From: Rhodospirillales bacterium
GTDB taxonomy: Bacteria > Pseudomonadota > Alphaproteobacteria > Rhodospirillales > Casp-alpha2
Direction: 5' to 3'
Assembly (NCBI GenBank): GCA_023145215.1
Contig: JAGLED010000008.1
Location: forward strand, 62,001 to 126,000
Length of the DNA: 64,000 bases
This document shows positions 26,928 through 56,139 of this stretch, piece by piece (the stretch's first letter is position 1; each line of letters starts with the position of its first letter). The translations under genes and the position numbers were made by a program. The notes beneath the pieces are model-generated. The model was not told where the DNA came from. It saw only the letters and a program-made list of their open reading frames with translations, and did no database searches.

Positions 26928-28427
26928 TTAGACATCGAAGTCGGCATTGATGCGCACCGGCGTCGACGCCCCGCGCCACGCCGTCATGCCGCGCGCGCGG
27001 GGATCGCGAACCCGTCCCGGTTCGGTGAGGCGGACCGGCTCCGCAAGCAGGCACCCTGCGACCGCATCGAGCCCGTCATCGGGACCGTTGCCGCCAGGCT
27101 GCCATTCCCGCATTTCGCGGATGAACGGGCTATCCCAAACGCGGCGGTGCGCACCCAGTTGTCCCGCCGCGAGAACGGCGTCGAAAGCTTCCAGGATGCG
27201 GTCGGTCTTATTGCGGCTGGACGCGTGTTCGATCACCGCCGCCGCCAGACCGGCGCGGCCCAGCTCGCGTCTGAATAGTCCGGGAAGAAATCGCCCGACG
27301 CCATTGGTCTCGATGGTGACGGCGGGCACGAAGTGGCGGCGCGCGAACGACACGGCCTGACGGCAAAGCTGCGTTGCCTCGTCGATCCGATCCGCGATCT
27401 CGGGCACGTGGGTCATATACTCGATCCCATGCAACCAGTAACCGCCGTCCTGATCGGTGTAGACTGCGGCGATCACGCTCGCGTCGCCGCGACCGGGCCG
27501 GCCGAAACTCGGATCCCAGAAACACGACGCCGACACCAGCCGCCGCCCACCCAAATGAAGGAGCGGTTCGCCGTTGGCTTCGCGATAGTCGAGTTCATCG
27601 CTGTATGACCGGATGCGATCCGGGTCGAGACGCGAGTCGAGCACATTGGTCGGCTGCAACATCATCTGCGAAGCATACTTCGCGGGTCCGGCGCGGCGGC
27701 GGAGCGCTTCGACCCGTTCCGGCGGAAACCGTTCGGGCCAACGCGATGCGCCGGTCTCGTCCGTGACGGGCAGCACGAGACGCCGAAAGCCGGCCAGATA
27801 CGGACGTTCTTCGCCGACTTCCGCCCGCGCCGTGTCGGCATAGACGGAGTAGTACGTATGCGGCGTGCCGACGAAGAGCCGAAGGCCACCCGGCACGAGA
27901 ATGAAATCGATTTCGTCCAGGCGGTCGCGCAGCTCGTCGCGCTTTAGTGCCGTATCGCAGGTGTTCGGCACTTCGACGTCGTCACAGATCACGATGTCGG
28001 CGCGGGACCCGGTAATGTTGGCGCCGATCCCCTTGGCCAGCATCGACGGATCCCGGTGCTCACGTCCGCGGGTGACCGTGAACCTGTCCGAGGCCCATTC
28101 CTCGGTGCGGGCGGGCCGAAGCCCCATCGCCAAGGGATGCCGTTCGAGTATGCGGCGCACGTTCCTGACCATCTTCTGCGCCAACTGGTGATCCGCCGCC
28201 AAGACCATAATCCGCAGTTCTGGGTTACAGACCAAAATCCAGGCCGAGAACAGCCCGACAAGGGTCGACTTTCCGGAGTTGCGAAACGCCATCAACAGAA
28301 GTTCCCGGTCACGCGAACGCCAACGAGTTTCGAGCCATGAAGCGATTTCGAAATGAAGTCCAGGCGTCCCCAGGCCCTGCACGTCATTCCATGCGGCCAG
28401 GAAAACGAGGAACGACGGCTTCTGCAT
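26928..28427 (-). CDS. terL: Phage large terminase subunit
   Basis: 499 residues. The ATPase half has a Walker A-like LLMAFRNSGKSTLVGLFSAW, a Walker B ADIVICDDVEV and coupling motif LFVGTPHTYYS. The nuclease half has FWDPSFGRPGRGDAS, TIETNGVG and a final GPDDGLDAVAG, giving the expected acidic residues. It pumps DNA into the prohead and cuts it. It resembles the packaging ATPases of T7/BPP-1-type podoviruses. The gene is intact, so the particle could still package DNA. It lies 5 bases after the putative small subunit. Confidence 0.92.
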   Translation of the reverse strand: MQKPSFLVFLAAWNDVQGLGTPGLHFEIASWLETRWRSRDRELLLMAFRNSGKSTLVGLFSAWILVCNPELRIMVLAADHQLAQKMVRNVRRILERHPLAMGLRPARTEEWASDRFTVTRGREHRDPSMLAKGIGANITGSRADIVICDDVEVPNTCDTALKRDELRDRLDEIDFILVPGGLRLFVGTPHTYYSVYADTARAEVGEERPYLAGFRRLVLPVTDETGASRWPERFPPERVEALRRRAGPAKYASQMMLQPTNVLDSRLDPDRIRSYSDELDYREANGEPLLHLGGRRLVSASCFWDPSFGRPGRGDASVIAAVYTDQDGGYWLHGIEYMTHVPEIADRIDEATQLCRQAVSFARRHFVPAVTIETNGVGRFLPGLFRRELGRAGLAAAVIEHASSRNKTDRILEAFDAVLAAGQLGAHRRVWDSPFIREMREWQPGGNGPDDGLDAVAGCLLAEPVRLTEPGRVRDPRARGMTAWRGASTPVRINADFDV

Positions 28428-31790: not shown

Positions 31791-31811
31791 AAAAAAAGCG
31801 GCCGAAGCCGC
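31791..31811 (-). terminator. Intrinsic terminator between the PGB protein and tail genes
   Basis: Minus strand GCGGC-TTCG-GCCGC followed by seven T; 26 bases after the stop of the gene at 31837. Confidence 0.8.
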
Positions 31812-33538: not shown

Positions 33539-33561
33539 AAAAAACGAGCCGAACGGCCCGT
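33539..33561 (-). terminator. Intrinsic terminator after the secreted gene
   Basis: Minus strand ACGGGCC-GTTC-GGCTCGT (one G-T pair) followed by six T, just after the stop of the gene at 33568. Confidence 0.75.
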
Positions 33562-39888: not shown

Positions 39889-39916
39889 AAAAAAAGCCGC
39901 CGGTGGTGCCGGCGGC
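39889..39916 (-). terminator. Intrinsic terminator after the DUF2927 gene
   Basis: Minus strand GCCGCCGG-(5)-CCGGCGGC followed by TTTTTTTGT; perfect 8-bp stem, 43 bases after the stop of the gene at 39960. Confidence 0.85.
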
Positions 39917-42692: not shown

Positions 42693-43511
42693 TCAGGATT
42701 CGAGGCAGCGCATGGAAACCACGCCGGCCGTATCGACCAGCACCGAGCCCTGGCTCATCGAGTTGTTGATGAAGTGCGCCGCCCGGTCGCCGTGCCACGT
42801 GATGTCGGTCTTGACCTCGGAGCCGACGGCATGGCCAATCGCGGTCTTGTGGTACCAGTAGCAGTACCGGACGTTCGACGTCTTGGTCAGACCCGAATGC
42901 GGCATCCAGAGCGTCCCGAGCCAGCGTTTGGCCTGGGTGCCCTTCCACGGCAGGTCATCGTCGCCGATGTAGTCCGCGTGCGCGAACTCCTCGATACCGA
43001 GCAGGTCCGACCACTGTTTCCAGCCGACGATGGCGTAACGTTCGCCGTCGTCCGGCACGTCGGCCCCGCCCAGCATCTCGAACGCCGTCAGCACCTTGGC
43101 CTTGGTCAGGCCGTCGGCGCCGGTCCCGGCGTAGTTCGTGGACGTATCGAGTTGCTCGATCACAAGCTCGTCGGTCTTGCGGCCGAGCGCATAGGCCCCG
43201 GCGCGCGCGATGACACCGCGCTCGTCGTGCGCGGTCTTGAGCTCGTCCAGGCTGTCGACCCAGTCACCGGCATAGTAGTCGTAGAGCGTGCATTCGACCG
43301 GTTCGTGATCGACGTTCATCACCGGCACCTTGCCGTGACGCGCCTTGGTCGAAGCGGTGCCCTTGCCGATTTTCTGGAAGGTGGTCGACGAGCCCTTGAT
43401 GTCGTTCTTGGTGCGAACGGTGTTCCGAAGCTTCGAGCCCATCCGCTGGTAAGCCAGATGAACGTCGGCCTGGAAATGTTTGACGAACGATTGTTCGACG
43501 GAAGTGGACAT
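42693..43511 (-). CDS. Major capsid protein (HK97-fold podovirus type)
   Basis: 272 residues. MSTSVEQSFVKHFQADVHLA, then KLRNTVRTKNDIKGSSTTFQ (N-arm and E-loop region), DHEPVECTLYDYYAGDWVDS and ALGRKTDELVIEQLD (spine helix) and DITWHGDRAAHFINNSMSQG near the end match the T7/BPP-1-like capsid group. Intact. GAGAGAGG precedes its ATG. Upstream is a 299-base gap up to the opposing partner gene; it holds GC-rich dyads but no clear promoter. Confidence 0.87.
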   Translation of the reverse strand: MSTSVEQSFVKHFQADVHLAYQRMGSKLRNTVRTKNDIKGSSTTFQKIGKGTASTKARHGKVPVMNVDHEPVECTLYDYYAGDWVDSLDELKTAHDERGVIARAGAYALGRKTDELVIEQLDTSTNYAGTGADGLTKAKVLTAFEMLGGADVPDDGERYAIVGWKQWSDLLGIEEFAHADYIGDDDLPWKGTQAKRWLGTLWMPHSGLTKTSNVRYCYWYHKTAIGHAVGSEVKTDITWHGDRAAHFINNSMSQGSVLVDTAGVVSMRCLES

Positions 43512-43763
43512 GGTCCTCTCTCCATTTCAGTTGAGTTTGGTTTGGATGAAATTCGGCCGACGCGGGTTGTGACGTCACGTCGCGTGACGCCGCCCGCGCT
43601 GCCGGGACGCGCAATCGGGGCCGGGCACGGACAGGAACGTTTGTCCGCGCCGGTTATCCCGGTGCGAAAAGGAAAAGAGAAATCGGTTGGGTAAAATTCC
43701 GGTGCGCCAACGAAGGTGAGCCTGAGATTTAGCCTTTCAACCGGAACGTGCTAAATAATCCCA

Positions 43764-43793
43764 CCGGTCCTTGCATAACCGCATGCAGGACCG
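43764..43793 (+). promoter_or_regulatory. Partner-gene upstream element, copy E, with inverted repeat
   Basis: CCGGTCCTTGCATAACC, with CATAAC 37 bases before the ATG at 43811. CCGGTCC and GGACCGG plus TGCA on both sides make a strong hairpin around the TAACC core. Confidence 0.65.
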
Positions 43794-43810
43794 GAACGAC
43801 GGAGCAGGCG

Positions 43811-44449
43811 ATGCGCGACCACGACAAATATGGTGTGAGCACCGGCAAGAAACTCTCTCTTGTATTCATCACCATTCTGGCCTTCATCGGCTTGATAAAT
43901 TTGCTGCCGATCGAGAAGCCGTTGTTTCTAGCGAAGGACTCCGAAACCCGTGCTTTTCGAATGCTGCTGCGCGGACAGTGCGAGGAGGGTTACGCTATTT
44001 ACGAGAAACGCGCGGACAAAGGTGAAACATTACATTTCCTCAGTCTTGGCAAATGGCTTTACTCCGGCATGTGCGGTGCGCCGGATATTCCTCGCGCAAT
44101 CATGTATTATCGCCAAGCCGCTGCTGCCAGTTGGTGCCAGGCAAACTTTCGCCTCGCCGGAATCGCACTTACTCATCCGGAGGTGCCGGACGTTACACAA
44201 GTACCGCCAGCGAATAATCTTTTCTCTGCGGTGATGTGCGCCTTCCATGTGGAAGACGAAGAAACCATCCGCCTGTTCTTCGAAAGCAGATCTCTGCCAC
44301 CTGCCTTCGAACAGTTGAGACCGCTGTTCCTGGAAGCCTTGGAACGGCGCCGCGATTACAAAGCTCTTGCAGAGCAAGAGCAAGAGAAGATCGTGAAGGC
44401 ACTCGTCAACGGTGACGGCTACGATGCCAATCCAGACGCCAAACCGTAA
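43811..44449 (+). CDS. Membrane-anchored Sel1-repeat protein; candidate immunity partner
   Basis: 212 residues from MRDHDKYGVSTGKKLSLVFI, with GGAGCAGGCG just before the ATG. An N-terminal anchor (LSLVFITILAFIGLINLLPI) is followed by Sel1-type repeats on the periplasmic side (GQCEEGYAIYEKRADKGETL, DIPRAIMYYRQAAAASWCQA, EALERRRDYKALAEQEQE). Its paralogue is at 45034. It converges on an orphan toxin tip. Variation between the paralogues is concentrated in the repeat region (residues about 50-120), as expected if they bind different toxin tips. Confidence 0.75.
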   Translation: MRDHDKYGVSTGKKLSLVFITILAFIGLINLLPIEKPLFLAKDSETRAFRMLLRGQCEEGYAIYEKRADKGETLHFLSLGKWLYSGMCGAPDIPRAIMYYRQAAAASWCQANFRLAGIALTHPEVPDVTQVPPANNLFSAVMCAFHVEDEETIRLFFESRSLPPAFEQLRPLFLEALERRRDYKALAEQEQEKIVKALVNGDGYDANPDAKP

Positions 44450-44504
44450 GACTGGTGGCGCTGGTCATTTCACAATCGAACATATGACAGCATGTTCGAA
44501 GCTC

Positions 44505-44948
44505 TTAATCAGCTTCGCAGCGTCGAAGATCGGCTTCGGCTTGCGCGAGTCGTCCGCGTGCGTGCGCAAGCTCTGGATTCAGGTCTCGTCGCTTGTGCAA
44601 TTTATCGCGCATACTTTCTCGTATCGGGTCGAGCTTTCCTTGGATATTCTGCAACTTTTCAAGCAACTCTTCTCTTTGAAGGTAGAACTCTTCATCGCTC
44701 ATGCCCAATGCCCGGTTGAACTCTCCGACCACAGCGTCCGGGTGTAGCTTGGCCCCGACGTAAACCGCCGTCATACCCTGAAGCCGCTCAAGAACCTGCT
44801 GCTTCTCGCGCTCGAGGCCCGTCACCTGATCGGCGAGATCGACAATCTCGCGTTCCAACTCGTCGGCGCGGGCTTCTAAGGTCTCCACCTCAGCTTCGGC
44901 CTCGTCGACCGCCTGTTCGTATGCGGCGCACGGGTCGTCGCAGTCAGA
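44505..44948 (-). pseudogene. Orphan coiled-coil toxin tip
   Basis: The open frame covers the last 147 codons of the complete gene at 45738-47138 (DDPCAAYEQAVDEAEAEVET onward to RRCEAD), with differences near the end (LEKLQNIQGKLDPIRESMRD against LEKLKGAQQKLDPIRKIMHE). It has no PGB module and no ribosome site of its own; the Met at 44888 is internal. It ends abruptly at the repeat junction. This is the typical form of a displaced toxin cassette, able to recombine into the full gene. Confidence 0.8.
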
Positions 44949-44987
44949 GGATTTAGCCTTTCAACCGGAACGTGCTAAATAATCCCA

Positions 44988-45017
44988 CCGGTCCTTGCAT
45001 AAACGATGCAGAACCGG
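44988..45017 (+). promoter_or_regulatory. Partner-gene upstream element, copy F
   Basis: CCGGTCCTTGCATAAAC, with CATAAA 36 bases before the ATG at 45034 and a TGCAT/ATGCA dyad. Same unit as copy E. Confidence 0.65.
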
Positions 45018-45033
45018 AACGACGGAGCAGGCG

Positions 45034-45690
45034 ATGCGCGACCACGACAAATATGGTGTGAGCACCGGCAAGAAACTCTCTCTTGTATTCATCACCATTC
45101 TGGCCTTCATCGGCTTGATAAATTTGCTGCCGATCGAGAAGCCTTTCTTTCTGGCAGACGACTCGGCTATCAGAGCCCACCGCTTGCTTGCCGACGGCAA
45201 GTGCGAAGAAGGCTATGCCATTTACGAGAAGCGCGCCGCCGACGGCCGTTACGACGTTTCGTGGCAAACGGTCGGCAGATTGAAATACCGCGGCGCATGC
45301 GGTGGCCAGGACTTGCCCGGCGCCATCGCCGCGTATCGACAGGCCGCGCGTGAAGGCTATTGCAATGCCAATTTTCGCCTCGCTGGAATCGCACATACCC
45401 ATCCGGAGGTGCCGGGCATTACACAGGTATCATCAGCGAATAATCTTTTCTCTGCGGTGATGTGCGCCTTCTATATGGAAGACGAAGAAACCATCCGCCT
45501 GTTTTTCGAAAGCAGATCTCTGCCACCCGCCTTCGAACAGTTGAGACCGCTGTTCCTGGAAGCACTGGAACGACGCCGGGAATTCAAATCCTTGGCACAG
45601 GACGAACAGGAGAAAGTCGTGGCGGCACTCGTCAACGGTGATGGTTACGATGCCAATCCGGATACCAAGCCGTTAAGCTACCGGCCCTGA
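45034..45690 (+). CDS. Membrane-anchored Sel1-repeat protein, second paralogue; candidate immunity for the complete toxin
   Basis: 218 residues. The first 40 residues equal those of the paralogue at 43811, including the anchor LSLVFITILAFIGLINLLPI. The repeats then differ (GKCEEGYAIYEKRAADGRYD, DLPGAIAAYRQAAREGYCNA) before the near-identical C-terminal third (FFESRSLPPAFEQLRPLFLE). It converges on the complete PGB/coiled-coil gene with 47 bases between stops, so it is the cognate partner by position. Confidence 0.75.
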   Translation: MRDHDKYGVSTGKKLSLVFITILAFIGLINLLPIEKPFFLADDSAIRAHRLLADGKCEEGYAIYEKRAADGRYDVSWQTVGRLKYRGACGGQDLPGAIAAYRQAAREGYCNANFRLAGIAHTHPEVPGITQVSSANNLFSAVMCAFYMEDEETIRLFFESRSLPPAFEQLRPLFLEALERRREFKSLAQDEQEKVVAALVNGDGYDANPDTKPLSYRP

Positions 45691-47160: not shown

Positions 47161-47204
47161 AAAAAAGGGCGGGGGTGCCGCCGGAAGAAAGCGACACCCC
47201 CGCC
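47161..47204 (-). terminator. Intrinsic terminator after the scaffold gene
   Basis: GGCGGGGGTG and CACCCCCGCC form a perfect 10-bp stem; on the minus strand TTTTTT follows. It separates the portal-scaffold genes from the toxin-like gene. Confidence 0.87.
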
Positions 47205-47999: not shown

Positions 48000-48275
48000 C
48001 TATTGATCGGTGTGAGAGCTTGAATTTGACTCGGACGTGGGACCGTTTCGGCCACGTTCGATCAGTGTCTGGATGTGATGGACGAGCTGGCGCTGCCCCT
48101 CGAGATGCCGGAGGTGCGCGTCGTCCGCCCCCGGCCCCAACGTGCGTTCCAGCGTGATGGCCCGCAGGTATGCGAGCATCCGCCGCCCGTCTGCGCCCTG
48201 GAAACATCGCGCCGCGATGAGCGCGAGTTCGGCCGGGTCGGGCTTGGGATCGGTTGCCAAGGCGTCACTGGACAT
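48000..48275 (-). CDS. Bbp19-like phage protein
   Basis: The Met of MSSDALATDPKPDPAELALI at 48275 overlaps the end of the portal gene by 11 bases; 91 residues. AARCFQGADGRRMLAYLRAI and HLEGQRQLVHHIQTLIERGR fit the Bbp19 family, first named in Bordetella podovirus BPP-1 and encoded next to the portal. Its function is unknown, possibly head assembly. The family assignment comes from memory of the pattern. Confidence 0.65.
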   Translation of the reverse strand: MSSDALATDPKPDPAELALIAARCFQGADGRRMLAYLRAITLERTLGPGADDAHLRHLEGQRQLVHHIQTLIERGRNGPTSESNSSSHTDQ

Positions 48276-49908
48276 GCTTGGCCTCCGCTGTCTCAACCGG
48301 CGCGGGTTCCACCGCACCGGCGTCGCCCGGCGGCGCATCGCTACCCAGCAGGTCGCCCAGCATGCCCATCAGATCGCCGCCCGCGCCCAAGTCCGGGACG
48401 GGCGGTACGTTTTCCGGCAGCTCCGAGATTTCGGCGTCGGTCCGAAGAATGTCTTCGGGGACCCCGAATGCCGCGGCGAGATAGCGCGACGTCTTGAGCG
48501 GGTCGATCAGCTTCTGCGCTTCCGGCCCCATGGCGGTGACGGCGTTGATCCAGTCCCGCACCATGCCCGCTTCGCGCTGCCGGCGGTGACGTGCCAAGGG
48601 CGACGTGTAGATCATCTCGACAACGCGGCCGTCGATCTCGAAACGGCCCACTTCGCCCCGGCGCTGAAGGATCGCCACGGCCCGGTTGGCCAGAGGCGTC
48701 AGCAGTTCGGACTGCAGGCGCCCATAGGTCGCGCCCAAAAGCCGCGCCATTTCCAGCGAACGTTCCAGGACTTCGGTCGCCGTCATGTCCGGTTTGTCGG
48801 GCTGACCCAGCATGTCGACCATCAGGGCGTGACGGATGCGGGCGCGCATCTGCTCCAGCACGTCGGTCGACAGGGTCATGTCGTTGGCGGGCTTCAACGG
48901 TGTGAGGCCGGCGGAGCCGACCGCCTTGGGAATGATGGTGCCCGGTTCCAGCTTGATCGTAGCCGGGTTCAGAACCCCATCGTCGTCGGCCTGCCAGATG
49001 CCGGTAACCGCGATCGACGCGTTCTTCAGTATCAACTCGACCACCTTGTTGGCGGTCTTGATATCCGGCAACGCCTTCATAACGGGCGAGCGCCCATAGA
49101 TTTCACCCGGCGCCTTGACCCAGCGGAAGTTGATGAACGGCGAGGAGCGGAACGCGCCGGTCCGAAGCACCTGCGTATCGGCGGCTTCGCCATCCGCCCC
49201 TTCGCGCACGGCGGCGTAATCGTAGCCGCGGCGTCCGGGCACCACCGCCTCGATGACGGCGATCTTCTTGTCCTTGTCGCTCTCTTCGGTGTCTTTATCC
49301 GTAAGCGTCGCTTCCGGATAGCGTTCCTTGAACTGTGCGACGGTGAGTTCCGATCTTCGGAATGTGGCGTCGAGCCGGCCCGACAGGCTTTCCTCGAACA
49401 CGACCTCCGACAGCGGCACGGCGGTGAAGCGAAATGCCGACGTTTCACCGACCGGTGCTTCCTCGAACATCAGACACGCGGTGCCTGCGGTGACGAGATC
49501 CAGATAGCACTGGTGCATCTCGACGGCGAAGTTCGAGCGGTCGAAATGCCCCTGCAGTACCGAAGCGGCATGGCCGAGGATTTCGCCCATCTTCTGAAGC
49601 GCCTCGTCGGGTGCCTCTTTGCCCGGCTTGAAGTCGAACCACTGATCCCAGGGCGGGGTCAGTTCCGACAACAGGCTCGCCGCCAACTGGTCGACGGCGT
49701 CTGTCGCGGTGCCGTCATAAAGCCGTGTGCCTTTCTTGGCGCCCGGCGCGGTGTCGGTGATCGCGGCTTCGCGTTGCGGCAGCGCATGTTCATAACATTC
49801 CCGCCATTGACCCGCCCAAGGGCTGCGCCGTTCCTTGGCACGGCGATAGCGCTCGGTCAGCTTTTGCGGATCGGGCATGTGTTCTTTTTCGGTCGGCGTC
49901 ATGGTCAA
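48265..49908 (-). CDS. Portal (head-tail connector) protein, T7 gp8-like
   Basis: 547 residues. LTERYRRAKERRSPWAGQWR and ECYEHALPQREA open the clip/stem region; TRLYDGTATDAVDQLAASLL and ELTPPWDQWFDFKPG are conserved in podoviral portals; INFRWVKAPGEIYGRSPVMK and GRLQSELLTPLANRAVAILQ lie in the body, and a Gly/Ala/Pro-rich tail ends in VETAEAKHVQ. Twelve copies form the DNA entry channel. Start at 49908 or the Met at 49902; it overlaps the small upstream gene by 4 bases. Confidence 0.92.
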   Translation of the reverse strand: MTMTPTEKEHMPDPQKLTERYRRAKERRSPWAGQWRECYEHALPQREAAITDTAPGAKKGTRLYDGTATDAVDQLAASLLSELTPPWDQWFDFKPGKEAPDEALQKMGEILGHAASVLQGHFDRSNFAVEMHQCYLDLVTAGTACLMFEEAPVGETSAFRFTAVPLSEVVFEESLSGRLDATFRRSELTVAQFKERYPEATLTDKDTEESDKDKKIAVIEAVVPGRRGYDYAAVREGADGEAADTQVLRTGAFRSSPFINFRWVKAPGEIYGRSPVMKALPDIKTANKVVELILKNASIAVTGIWQADDDGVLNPATIKLEPGTIIPKAVGSAGLTPLKPANDMTLSTDVLEQMRARIRHALMVDMLGQPDKPDMTATEVLERSLEMARLLGATYGRLQSELLTPLANRAVAILQRRGEVGRFEIDGRVVEMIYTSPLARHRRQREAGMVRDWINAVTAMGPEAQKLIDPLKTSRYLAAAFGVPEDILRTDAEISELPENVPPVPDLGAGGDLMGMLGDLLGSDAPPGDAGAVEPAPVETAEAKHVQ

Positions 49909-50132
49909 TCTCCAAGCTTGTCCTTGAGCGGGCTTGCCGATGCGGCGGCCGCGACTGTGTCGTTGCGTTCCTCGAGCACGCCGCGGTCCGATGTGGCGAT
50001 GGTGCCGGCACGGCCGCGGCGGCGGCGTTCGATGGCATCGAGGCGGCGCTGGCGGTCCTCTTCCGACGTGTCAGGCGGCGGCGGTGGCGGCGCCGGTGGC
50101 GGCGTGGAAGGCGATGAGAAAAATCCACCCAT
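49905..50132 (-). CDS. Small proline-rich protein, first gene of the particle cluster
   Basis: MGGFFSSPSTPPPAPPPPPP starts at 50132 with AAAGGAG 7 bases upstream; 75 residues. After the proline run comes a basic helix (RLDAIERRRRGRAGTIATSD) and LKDKLGD. I recall this MGGFFSSP-type protein in front of the portal in many alphaproteobacterial podovirus-like prophages; it is probably a head or assembly factor. It is the first open frame after the promoter-terminator leader. Confidence 0.7.
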   Translation of the reverse strand: MGGFFSSPSTPPPAPPPPPPDTSEEDRQRRLDAIERRRRGRAGTIATSDRGVLEERNDTVAAAASASPLKDKLGD

Positions 50133-50173
50133 GGTCTGTCTCCTTTGCTGGGTTGCATGGTGCCGTTCGGGCA

Positions 50174-50201
50174 CAAAAAAAGGCGCCCGGTCGGGGCGCC
50201 T
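50174..50201 (-). terminator. Terminator inside the leader of the particle operon
   Basis: Minus strand AGGCGCCC-(5)-GGGCGCCT followed by TTTTTTTGTG. It lies about 90 bases after the predicted start of transcription and 42 bases before the first gene, so the transcript must pass it to reach the structural genes. Confidence 0.85.
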
Positions 50202-50297
50202 CGTTACGAAAACACGGTCTGTCAGGGAGGGGCCGAACGGGCCCGAAAATACGAAAGCCCCGGATTGCGGACACACTTGTCCCCGGGACTTGTCGCT

Positions 50298-50326
50298 AAT
50301 CTAAAATTCTATTCGCGAAGAGTCAA
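50298..50326 (-). promoter_or_regulatory. Sigma-70-type promoter for the particle operon
   Basis: Minus strand TTGACT, exactly 17 bases, TAGATT. Transcription would begin near 50291 and run left toward the portal gene. The -35 box touches the T-run of the tldD terminator, so the accessory cluster begins immediately after the host gene's terminator. The 50133-50330 leader contains no convincing ORF. Confidence 0.7.
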
Positions 50327-50327
50327 C

Positions 50328-50371
50328 AAAAAATTCCCGCCATGGGTGTACAATTTGGTCACCCTTGGCGG
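50328..50371 (-). terminator. Intrinsic terminator of tldD
   Basis: Arms CCGCCATGGGTG and CACCCTTGGCGG (one mismatch) with an 11-base loop; minus strand AATTTTTTG follows. It lies 24 bases after the tldD stop and marks the right boundary of the accessory cluster. Confidence 0.82.
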
Positions 50372-50394
50372 AGGGGCTTCAGAATGCCGCCACT

Positions 50395-56005: not shown

Positions 56006-56034
56006 TTGTCGAAACGGAGGCGAATGCATATAAA
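56006..56034 (+). promoter_or_regulatory. Promoter of the metZ transcript
   Basis: TTGTCG, 17 bases, TATAAA; the expected start of transcription, near 56041, is the first base of the riboswitch aptamer. Confidence 0.65.
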
Positions 56035-56040
56035 TCTCTG

Positions 56041-56102
56041 CACGTGGTGATTTGTCCGACCGGCTTGCGGCCACGTTAAATAAACCCGCTAAAAGGTCTC
56101 GG
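56041..56102 (+). ncRNA. SAM-II riboswitch aptamer
   Basis: The sequence follows the SAM-II consensus: GGTGATTTG, CCGACCGGCTTGC, GCCACGTTAAA and CGCTAAAAGG in order and at normal spacing. The T-loop pseudoknot can form between these parts. It binds S-adenosylmethionine and lowers expression of metZ when SAM is plentiful. SAM-II is typical of alphaproteobacterial metA/metZ genes. Confidence 0.9.
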
Positions 56103-56113
56103 TTCGACGAGGC

Positions 56114-56139
56114 CCCTGGCGTGAGTGTCAGGGTTTTTT
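56114..56139 (+). terminator. Terminator between the SAM-II aptamer and metZ
   Basis: CCCTGGC-GTGAGT-GTCAGGG followed by TTTTTT. It lies 11 bases after the aptamer, suggesting control by early termination rather than only by hiding the ribosome site. Confidence 0.8.

Follow-up and report, generated by a model that had tools for sequence, protein, structure and literature searches.

A promoter, a conserved initial transcribed element and a terminator precede a podovirus-type particle cluster in Rhodospirillales and suggest control by antitermination

The window (the whole stretch of DNA analysed, 64,000 nucleotides) was found to carry, downstream of tldD on the minus strand, a T7/Bbp19-type podoviral set of head, tail, packaging and lysis genes running from 50.1 to 26.9 kb, portal to large terminase (Table 1). 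In addition to the genes listed there, the cluster encodes a Bbp19-like protein, a T7 scaffold (PF05396), a cell-wall hydrolase, GTA_holin_3TM, tail proteins and T7-type fibre N-termini. Capsid, portal and packaging genes are present as in a GTA, with no replication or integration genes (polymerase, integrase) among the cluster ORFs scanned. The cluster also lies downstream of tldD in the same-genus genomes G043 and G046, and pN/pS over shared genes ranges from 0.02 to 0.42 (capsid 0.02–0.05, terminase 0.16–0.18, portal 0.18–0.24). The structural genes are under purifying selection, and together with the shared tldD neighbourhood this is the long vertical inheritance typical of a GTA. A GTA-like nature is plausible because of this selection and neighbourhood, the large terminase, the lack of detected replication genes and the dispersed regulon described below.

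Of 48 genomes in the family, 28 have the portal gene. The GTDB collection has 494 loci with it, the best 80 of the 494 being mostly from Rhodospirillales. The closest isolated phages are Pelagibacter podophages (portal 35%, capsid 47%). A free-phage source of the leader cassette was rejected, as the IMG/VR matches, judged by contig names and lengths, were short contigs or isolate-genome calls resembling the same host clusters. No report of a podoviral GTA from Rhodospirillales turned up in the literature searched; an Azospirillum paper describes particles with ~10 kb of random DNA and assigns them to other loci.

Table 1. Features of the leader and of the particle cluster in the window.
Feature	Position	Strand	Evidence or remark
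tldD stop	50395	-	NCBIfam NF008006, 563 bits, cut-off 513
Intrinsic terminator of tldD, abutting the -35 hexamer	50327..50372	-	TCCGCCAaGGGTG..CACCCaTGGCGGG AATTTTTTG
Arms of the tldD terminator	50372-50327	-	TCCGCCAAGGGTG..CACCCATGGCGGGAATTTTTTG
-35 hexamer TTGACT	50321..50326	-	
-10 hexamer TAGATT, 17-nt spacer from -35	50298..50303	-	
Leader hairpin around the ITS element	50255..50291	-	Fold of the first 37 nt of the leader
Conserved 26-nt ITS element, core TGYGYCC	50265..50290	-	AGTCCCGGGGACAAGTGTGTCCGCAA; EM motif; R1 match
Leader intrinsic terminator, 9-bp stem, 5-nt loop, seven T	50175..50202	-	Hairpin GAGGCGCCCCGACCGGGCGCCTT at 50202-50180; seven T at 50181-50175
First gene, small proline-rich protein, phrog_831	49905..50132	-	MGGFFSSPSTPPP...; ATG 50132; kept in most homologs
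Portal / head-tail connector	48265..49902	-	PF12236, 441 bits
Terminator before the 490-aa gene	47168..47204	-	15-pair stem, CTTTTTT
Major capsid protein	42693..43511	-	PF19821
Terminator before the cell-wall hydrolase gene	39896..39916	-	
Terminator before the 557-aa peptidoglycan-binding gene	33544..33561	-	
Terminator before the 189-aa tail protein gene	31798..31811	-	
T7-type terminase large subunit, last clear cluster gene	26928..28427	-	NF033889, 425 bits, cut-off 150; phrog_38

The first-pass annotation described the tldD terminator, then TTGACT-17-TAGATT, a hairpin with seven T about 90 bases into the leader, and the first gene; all of these were recovered on the minus strand. The stretch holding the tldD terminator (50390-50323) folds at about -26 kcal/mol. 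Judged from the -10 spacing, transcription would start near 50291, and counted from there the leader terminator hairpin begins 89 nt into the leader. On composition alone, one promoter was found in the same 2.5 kb against 0.3 expected and two terminators against 2.2 expected, so that the promoter and terminator of the window, taken alone, are only modestly above chance. They are regarded as real because dozens of related genomes have the promoter, ITS element and terminator together in front of the same gene; terminators like that of the window stand at the matching place in four same-genus loci (L003, L004, L024 and L030).

The ITS (initial-transcribed-sequence) element, 26 nt long and located between promoter and terminator, had been missed by the first-pass annotation. 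EM on 94 non-redundant upstream regions yielded one strong motif, TCAACGcCAcAnnTGcGtCCgnAgCC, with a log-likelihood of 563 compared with 228–238 in shuffled regions, and the sequence model R1 matched the ITS in the genome of the window at E 4.6e-7. Among 48 distinct leaders (<80% identical) in which conservation columns were scored, Y17, G18 and C20 are invariant (core TGYGYCC) and T15 is kept in 44. The -35 could be located in 43 leaders and is 35, 36 or 37 nt from the ITS in all of them. In the 43 homologous leaders with a placeable TTG, A3 and C4 of TTGAC show 98% conservation, and the -10 in homologs mostly ends 5–8 nt before the ITS. This fixed -35 distance and short gap place the motif at about +1 to +26, as the initial transcribed sequence. 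The columns of the -35/-10 spacer are information-poor, mostly ≤0.3 bit. The core TGYG resembles the consensus elemental pause in its 3' half, and a polymerase pause at this core is predicted.

In the window the ITS is enclosed by a hairpin, likewise absent from the first-pass annotation, which is stronger than that of the terminator. It was rejected as a conserved feature, as it is not kept in every clade: the Magnetospirillum-type ITS of L073 did not form it when folded, and other ITS elements of this type lack the letters for the pairing in the alignment. What is conserved at the ITS, by these alignments, is the sequence and not the hairpin. This bears on a leader RNA that would itself antiterminate without a factor, like HK022 put. 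The strong hairpin with which the window leader opens and the immediately promoter-proximal position of the ITS would suit such an RNA, but a conserved RNA structure at the leader start was not found, and we give this reading very little credence. Two further explanations of the leader were set aside. A riboswitch or other known RNA family was rejected for lack of an Rfam match at gathering (best weak match RF02837, 16.5 bits, E 0.16; gathering score 49.5). Leader peptide attenuation was rejected as no ORF with an evident ribosome-binding site precedes the terminator; in most homologs there is no room for such a peptide, because the terminator starts within ~5 nt of the ITS.

A terminator score of at least 21 was reached behind the ITS in 37 of 84 cassettes, compared with 2.6 expected from dinucleotide shuffles, and the stricter score of at least 27 in 33 of 84, compared with 0.6. 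About half of the cassettes are without a strong terminator by this consensus scan, which is partly due to the strict T-run rules, since hairpins are visible yet unscored in L068, L047 and L058. In most relatives the stem starts a few nucleotides after the ITS, so that the default transcript would be ~55–60 nt long. A 16-sequence alignment of such abutting terminators has 13 stem pairs, and in 7 of them both partners have changed with pairing preserved; compensatory cells number 24 compared with 7.4 when shuffled, and every slid structure scores lower. The stem result was obtained by RNAalifold with the terminator-only subset (A3), while no pairs came out of the mixed alignment of full leaders (A1), owing to variation in the position and loop of the terminator. 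In the genus of the window the ITS lies inside a hairpin and a second terminator follows further on. In the unlinked same-genus copies L142 (...GGGACTTTTTTG) and L143 (...GGGGCTTTTTTG) the ITS hairpin leads directly into a T run (TTTTTTG) and forms a first terminator, whereas in the window this T run is degenerate. Three loci of genus g6 with portals 24–30% identical (L026, L027 and L031) have an intrinsic terminator at about -16 nt before the portal gene, and no ITS was recognised in them.

Strong terminators also occur within the cluster. The window cluster carries nine, all of them on the coding strand, and 60 homologous clusters carry 70 on that strand compared with 28 antisense. Those beginning at 47204, 39916, 33561 and 31811 stand shortly 5' of a start codon and have no cassette promoter of their own. 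A single upstream promoter would therefore be blocked unless the polymerase is termination-resistant.

These terminators bear on the main rival explanation, namely that the ITS is a DNA operator. Initiation across the regulon would then be governed by a repressor sitting on +1 to +26, or by an activator, and the terminators would only limit leakage. The ITS is conserved in sequence, partly dyad-symmetric, overlaps the start region and matches within each genome, and its position after the start site would also suit a repressor. LexA-type boxes (GAAC-N7-GAAC) were observed in some Magnetospirillum-type leaders, mostly between terminator and start codon, with six exact cases (L046, L048, L050, L055, L063 and L069) compared with 0.44 expected; about 20 leaders have GAACAAA between -18 and -40. 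The boxes hint at SOS control and, because of them, classical repression may act in those leaders; none was seen in the window. However, an operator by itself leaves unexplained the terminator abutting the ITS, the covariation of its stem and the coding-strand terminators that recur between genes for which no promoter was recognised. We therefore consider this explanation unlikely, although less so than the others weighed here.

Cassette copies are not confined to the portal end of the cluster. They were found before the capsid gene (L035, L054, L079, L253 and L104) and before peptidoglycan-binding-type genes (L032 and L037), and L051 has four; a second cassette before the capsid gene of the window itself was looked for and none was detected. 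In the complete genome G046, with the cluster at 0.3 Mb, unlinked cassettes at 3.88 and 2.47 Mb precede an internal-virion-like gene and a homolog of the 490-aa gene of the window, both with a terminator downstream, shortly before the start codon. G012 has a further copy 43 kb away. Some lineages have no cassette directly before the portal, and in lineages such as g13 it lies ~20 kb from the portal, before other cluster-region genes. ITS identity is 0.72 within genomes versus 0.54 between them, and that of the spacer 0.40 versus 0.29, over 36 pairs, which are not all independent and include the duplicated L054/L158 cluster and some out-of-register pairs. Among 289 Alphaproteobacteria, the portal is present in 17 of 18 cassette genomes and the cassette in 1 of 221 portal-less genomes (Fisher 6e-11), whole genomes having been scanned with R1, which was trained on portal-adjacent leaders and misses divergent cassettes.

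In two genomes of one genus, G310 (L238-L252) and G221, promoter and ITS occur in 16 and 11 dispersed copies, respectively. The G310 copies read are mostly followed by CGGCCGGCCGAC and mostly have no gene start nearby; the portal is broken in G221 and was not found in G310. These repeats might be a mobile promoter repeat or a multicopy sRNA. A related explanation for the leader is that it is a stand-alone sRNA gene, one of several siblings sharing the ITS, with the particle genes on other promoters. A promoter followed by a terminator 55–115 nt later is also the layout of an sRNA gene, and the dispersion in G310 and G221 would fit, as would the lack of a gene right behind most G310 copies. However, in many genera it is the same cluster genes that follow the cassette, and a ribosome-binding site and an ATG are often found shortly behind it. 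The Rfam search also gave no match, and we consider this explanation improbable.

The leader might also be a relic, with a leaky phage promoter and insulating terminators left in a decaying prophage and no regulated function. Some relatives have indeed lost the cluster by internal deletion, which joined the portal start to the terminase end in L150 (G044) and to the hydrolase end in L119 (G006), promoter and ITS being retained in both. The purifying selection, the conserved position next to tldD in the genus and the conserved, compensatory leader architecture speak against decay, and we hold this to be a highly improbable account.

The reading we favour, although only with moderate confidence, is that the leader would place a domesticated podovirus-derived GTA-like cluster under factor-dependent antitermination control, with polymerase reading through the internal terminators. 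A housekeeping-type promoter would start the RNA at ~50291, and polymerase would then meet the ITS as a loading or pause site. By default transcription would stop at the leader terminator, releasing a leader RNA of ~115 nt in the window and of the shorter length given above in most relatives. A factor acting in trans, whose gene most likely belongs to the host and lies outside the cluster, would engage polymerase at the promoter and ITS, and the modified, termination-resistant polymerase would read the ~23-kb cluster across its internal terminators, so that the antitermination is probably processive. This arrangement suggests that particle production may be held back until the host factor permits read-through. 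An antiterminator-dependent leader and a factor supplied from outside the cluster had both been proposed in the first-pass annotation; the comparative evidence (conserved promoter and terminator, the conserved element between them, the further coding-strand terminators and the unlinked cassette copies) fits this combined idea well, although it does not amount to proof.

A search for phage-type antiterminators, also suggested in that annotation, gave no match to the Q families PF03589 and PF06530 in eight genomes, with E. coli controls that worked. PF06323 had no match in the eight genomes, nor a control match in this search. DUF6456 (PF20057), which we take to mark GafA/GafZ, was found in none of the eight, its control matching Caulobacter. 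The genome of the window is 66% complete and absence there consequently means little; G046 and G032 are single-contig. Among these partly incomplete assemblies, several have a NusG paralog (a second PF02357 protein); cassette genomes in which none was detected include G007 (96% complete), G009 and G013. Where looked at (L232 and L235, sequences by eye), the NusG paralogs adjoin sugar-nucleotide or glycosyltransferase genes. A NusG paralog is considered an unlikely factor on account of this sugar-gene context and its not being found in G007.

The layout resembles that of lambda Q and 21Q at pR'-tR', with a promoter, an intrinsic terminator in the leader and particle genes after it, and with a promoter-proximal element able to pause polymerase, here by prediction. 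In these phages the Q-binding element lies between -35 and -10, and the initial transcribed region contains a -10-like pause element (PMC6606751). In the present leaders it is the region from +1 to +26 that is conserved and not the spacer, the cassette is repeated at several loci and the Q families PF03589 and PF06530 are without match in the eight genomes. The comparison with lambda pR'-tR' made in the first-pass annotation thus stands for the terminator between promoter and first late gene, but not for the place of the conserved element; it describes function and not family, because there is no Q-family match and the element is in the initial transcribed region.

Among GTAs, the Caulobacter cluster is controlled by GafZ antitermination, its activators being encoded elsewhere in the genome (PMC11150451). 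At its promoter PgtaT (GafY/GafZ, IHF, terGTA), as proposed here, expression of an alphaproteobacterial GTA cluster needs terminator bypass; however, GafZ has a palindromic site located between -35 and -10, in contrast to an element after the start site, the mapped terminator follows the first gene and the phage ancestor is different. For BaGTA, the title of Korotaev, Niggli and Dehio 2025 (cited in PMC13236601) refers to antitermination integrating dispersed GTA loci, and the likeness is drawn from that title. Podovirus-type GTA-like operons in a different phylum are likewise split over loci. RfaH is recruited to several operons by ops, a short conserved leader element on the non-template strand (PMC2871177). 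The ITS differs from ops in sequence and position, and the NusG paralogs differ from RfaH in their sugar-gene neighbours and in not being found in every cassette genome.

It is possible, and tentatively suggested, that the ITS represents an undescribed class of antitermination signal. Its 26 nt would be recognised by a new host factor of Alphaproteobacteria that has no relation to Q, GafZ, N or RfaH, and in many genera of Rhodospirillales this factor would license read-through of a podovirus-type GTA regulon with dispersed loci. One short element, repeated and tied to particle genes across Rhodospirillales, predicts a single trans-acting factor. The cassette hosts include Magnetospirillum, Terasakiella and Skermanella, some of them culturable, and provide a ready test of host control over domesticated phage particles. 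If this is correct, GTA-type clusters that descend from different phages (those of Caulobacter and Bartonella and the podoviral one here) would have come to rely on antitermination repeatedly, and GTA-like elements derived from podoviruses would be common among Alphaproteobacteria instead of being described only from Faecalibacterium.

Some minor features were observed around the cassettes and in the window. In many relatives (e.g., L119:736-1496) the cassette is directly preceded by genes for two conserved proteins of 121 and 131 aa without a Pfam or NCBIfam match, the 131-aa protein having ...TPWNLY near its end; neither was seen at the window locus. A protein of 231–233 aa (MRDHDKYGVSTGKKLSLV...) is encoded by plus-strand genes twice within the cluster (window 43748-45690 and 44505-44888), accompanied by a duplicated C-terminal piece of the 490-aa gene, a local duplication. 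A SAM_alpha riboswitch (70.5 bits) lies at 56034-56133 of the window on the plus strand and is followed by an intrinsic terminator.
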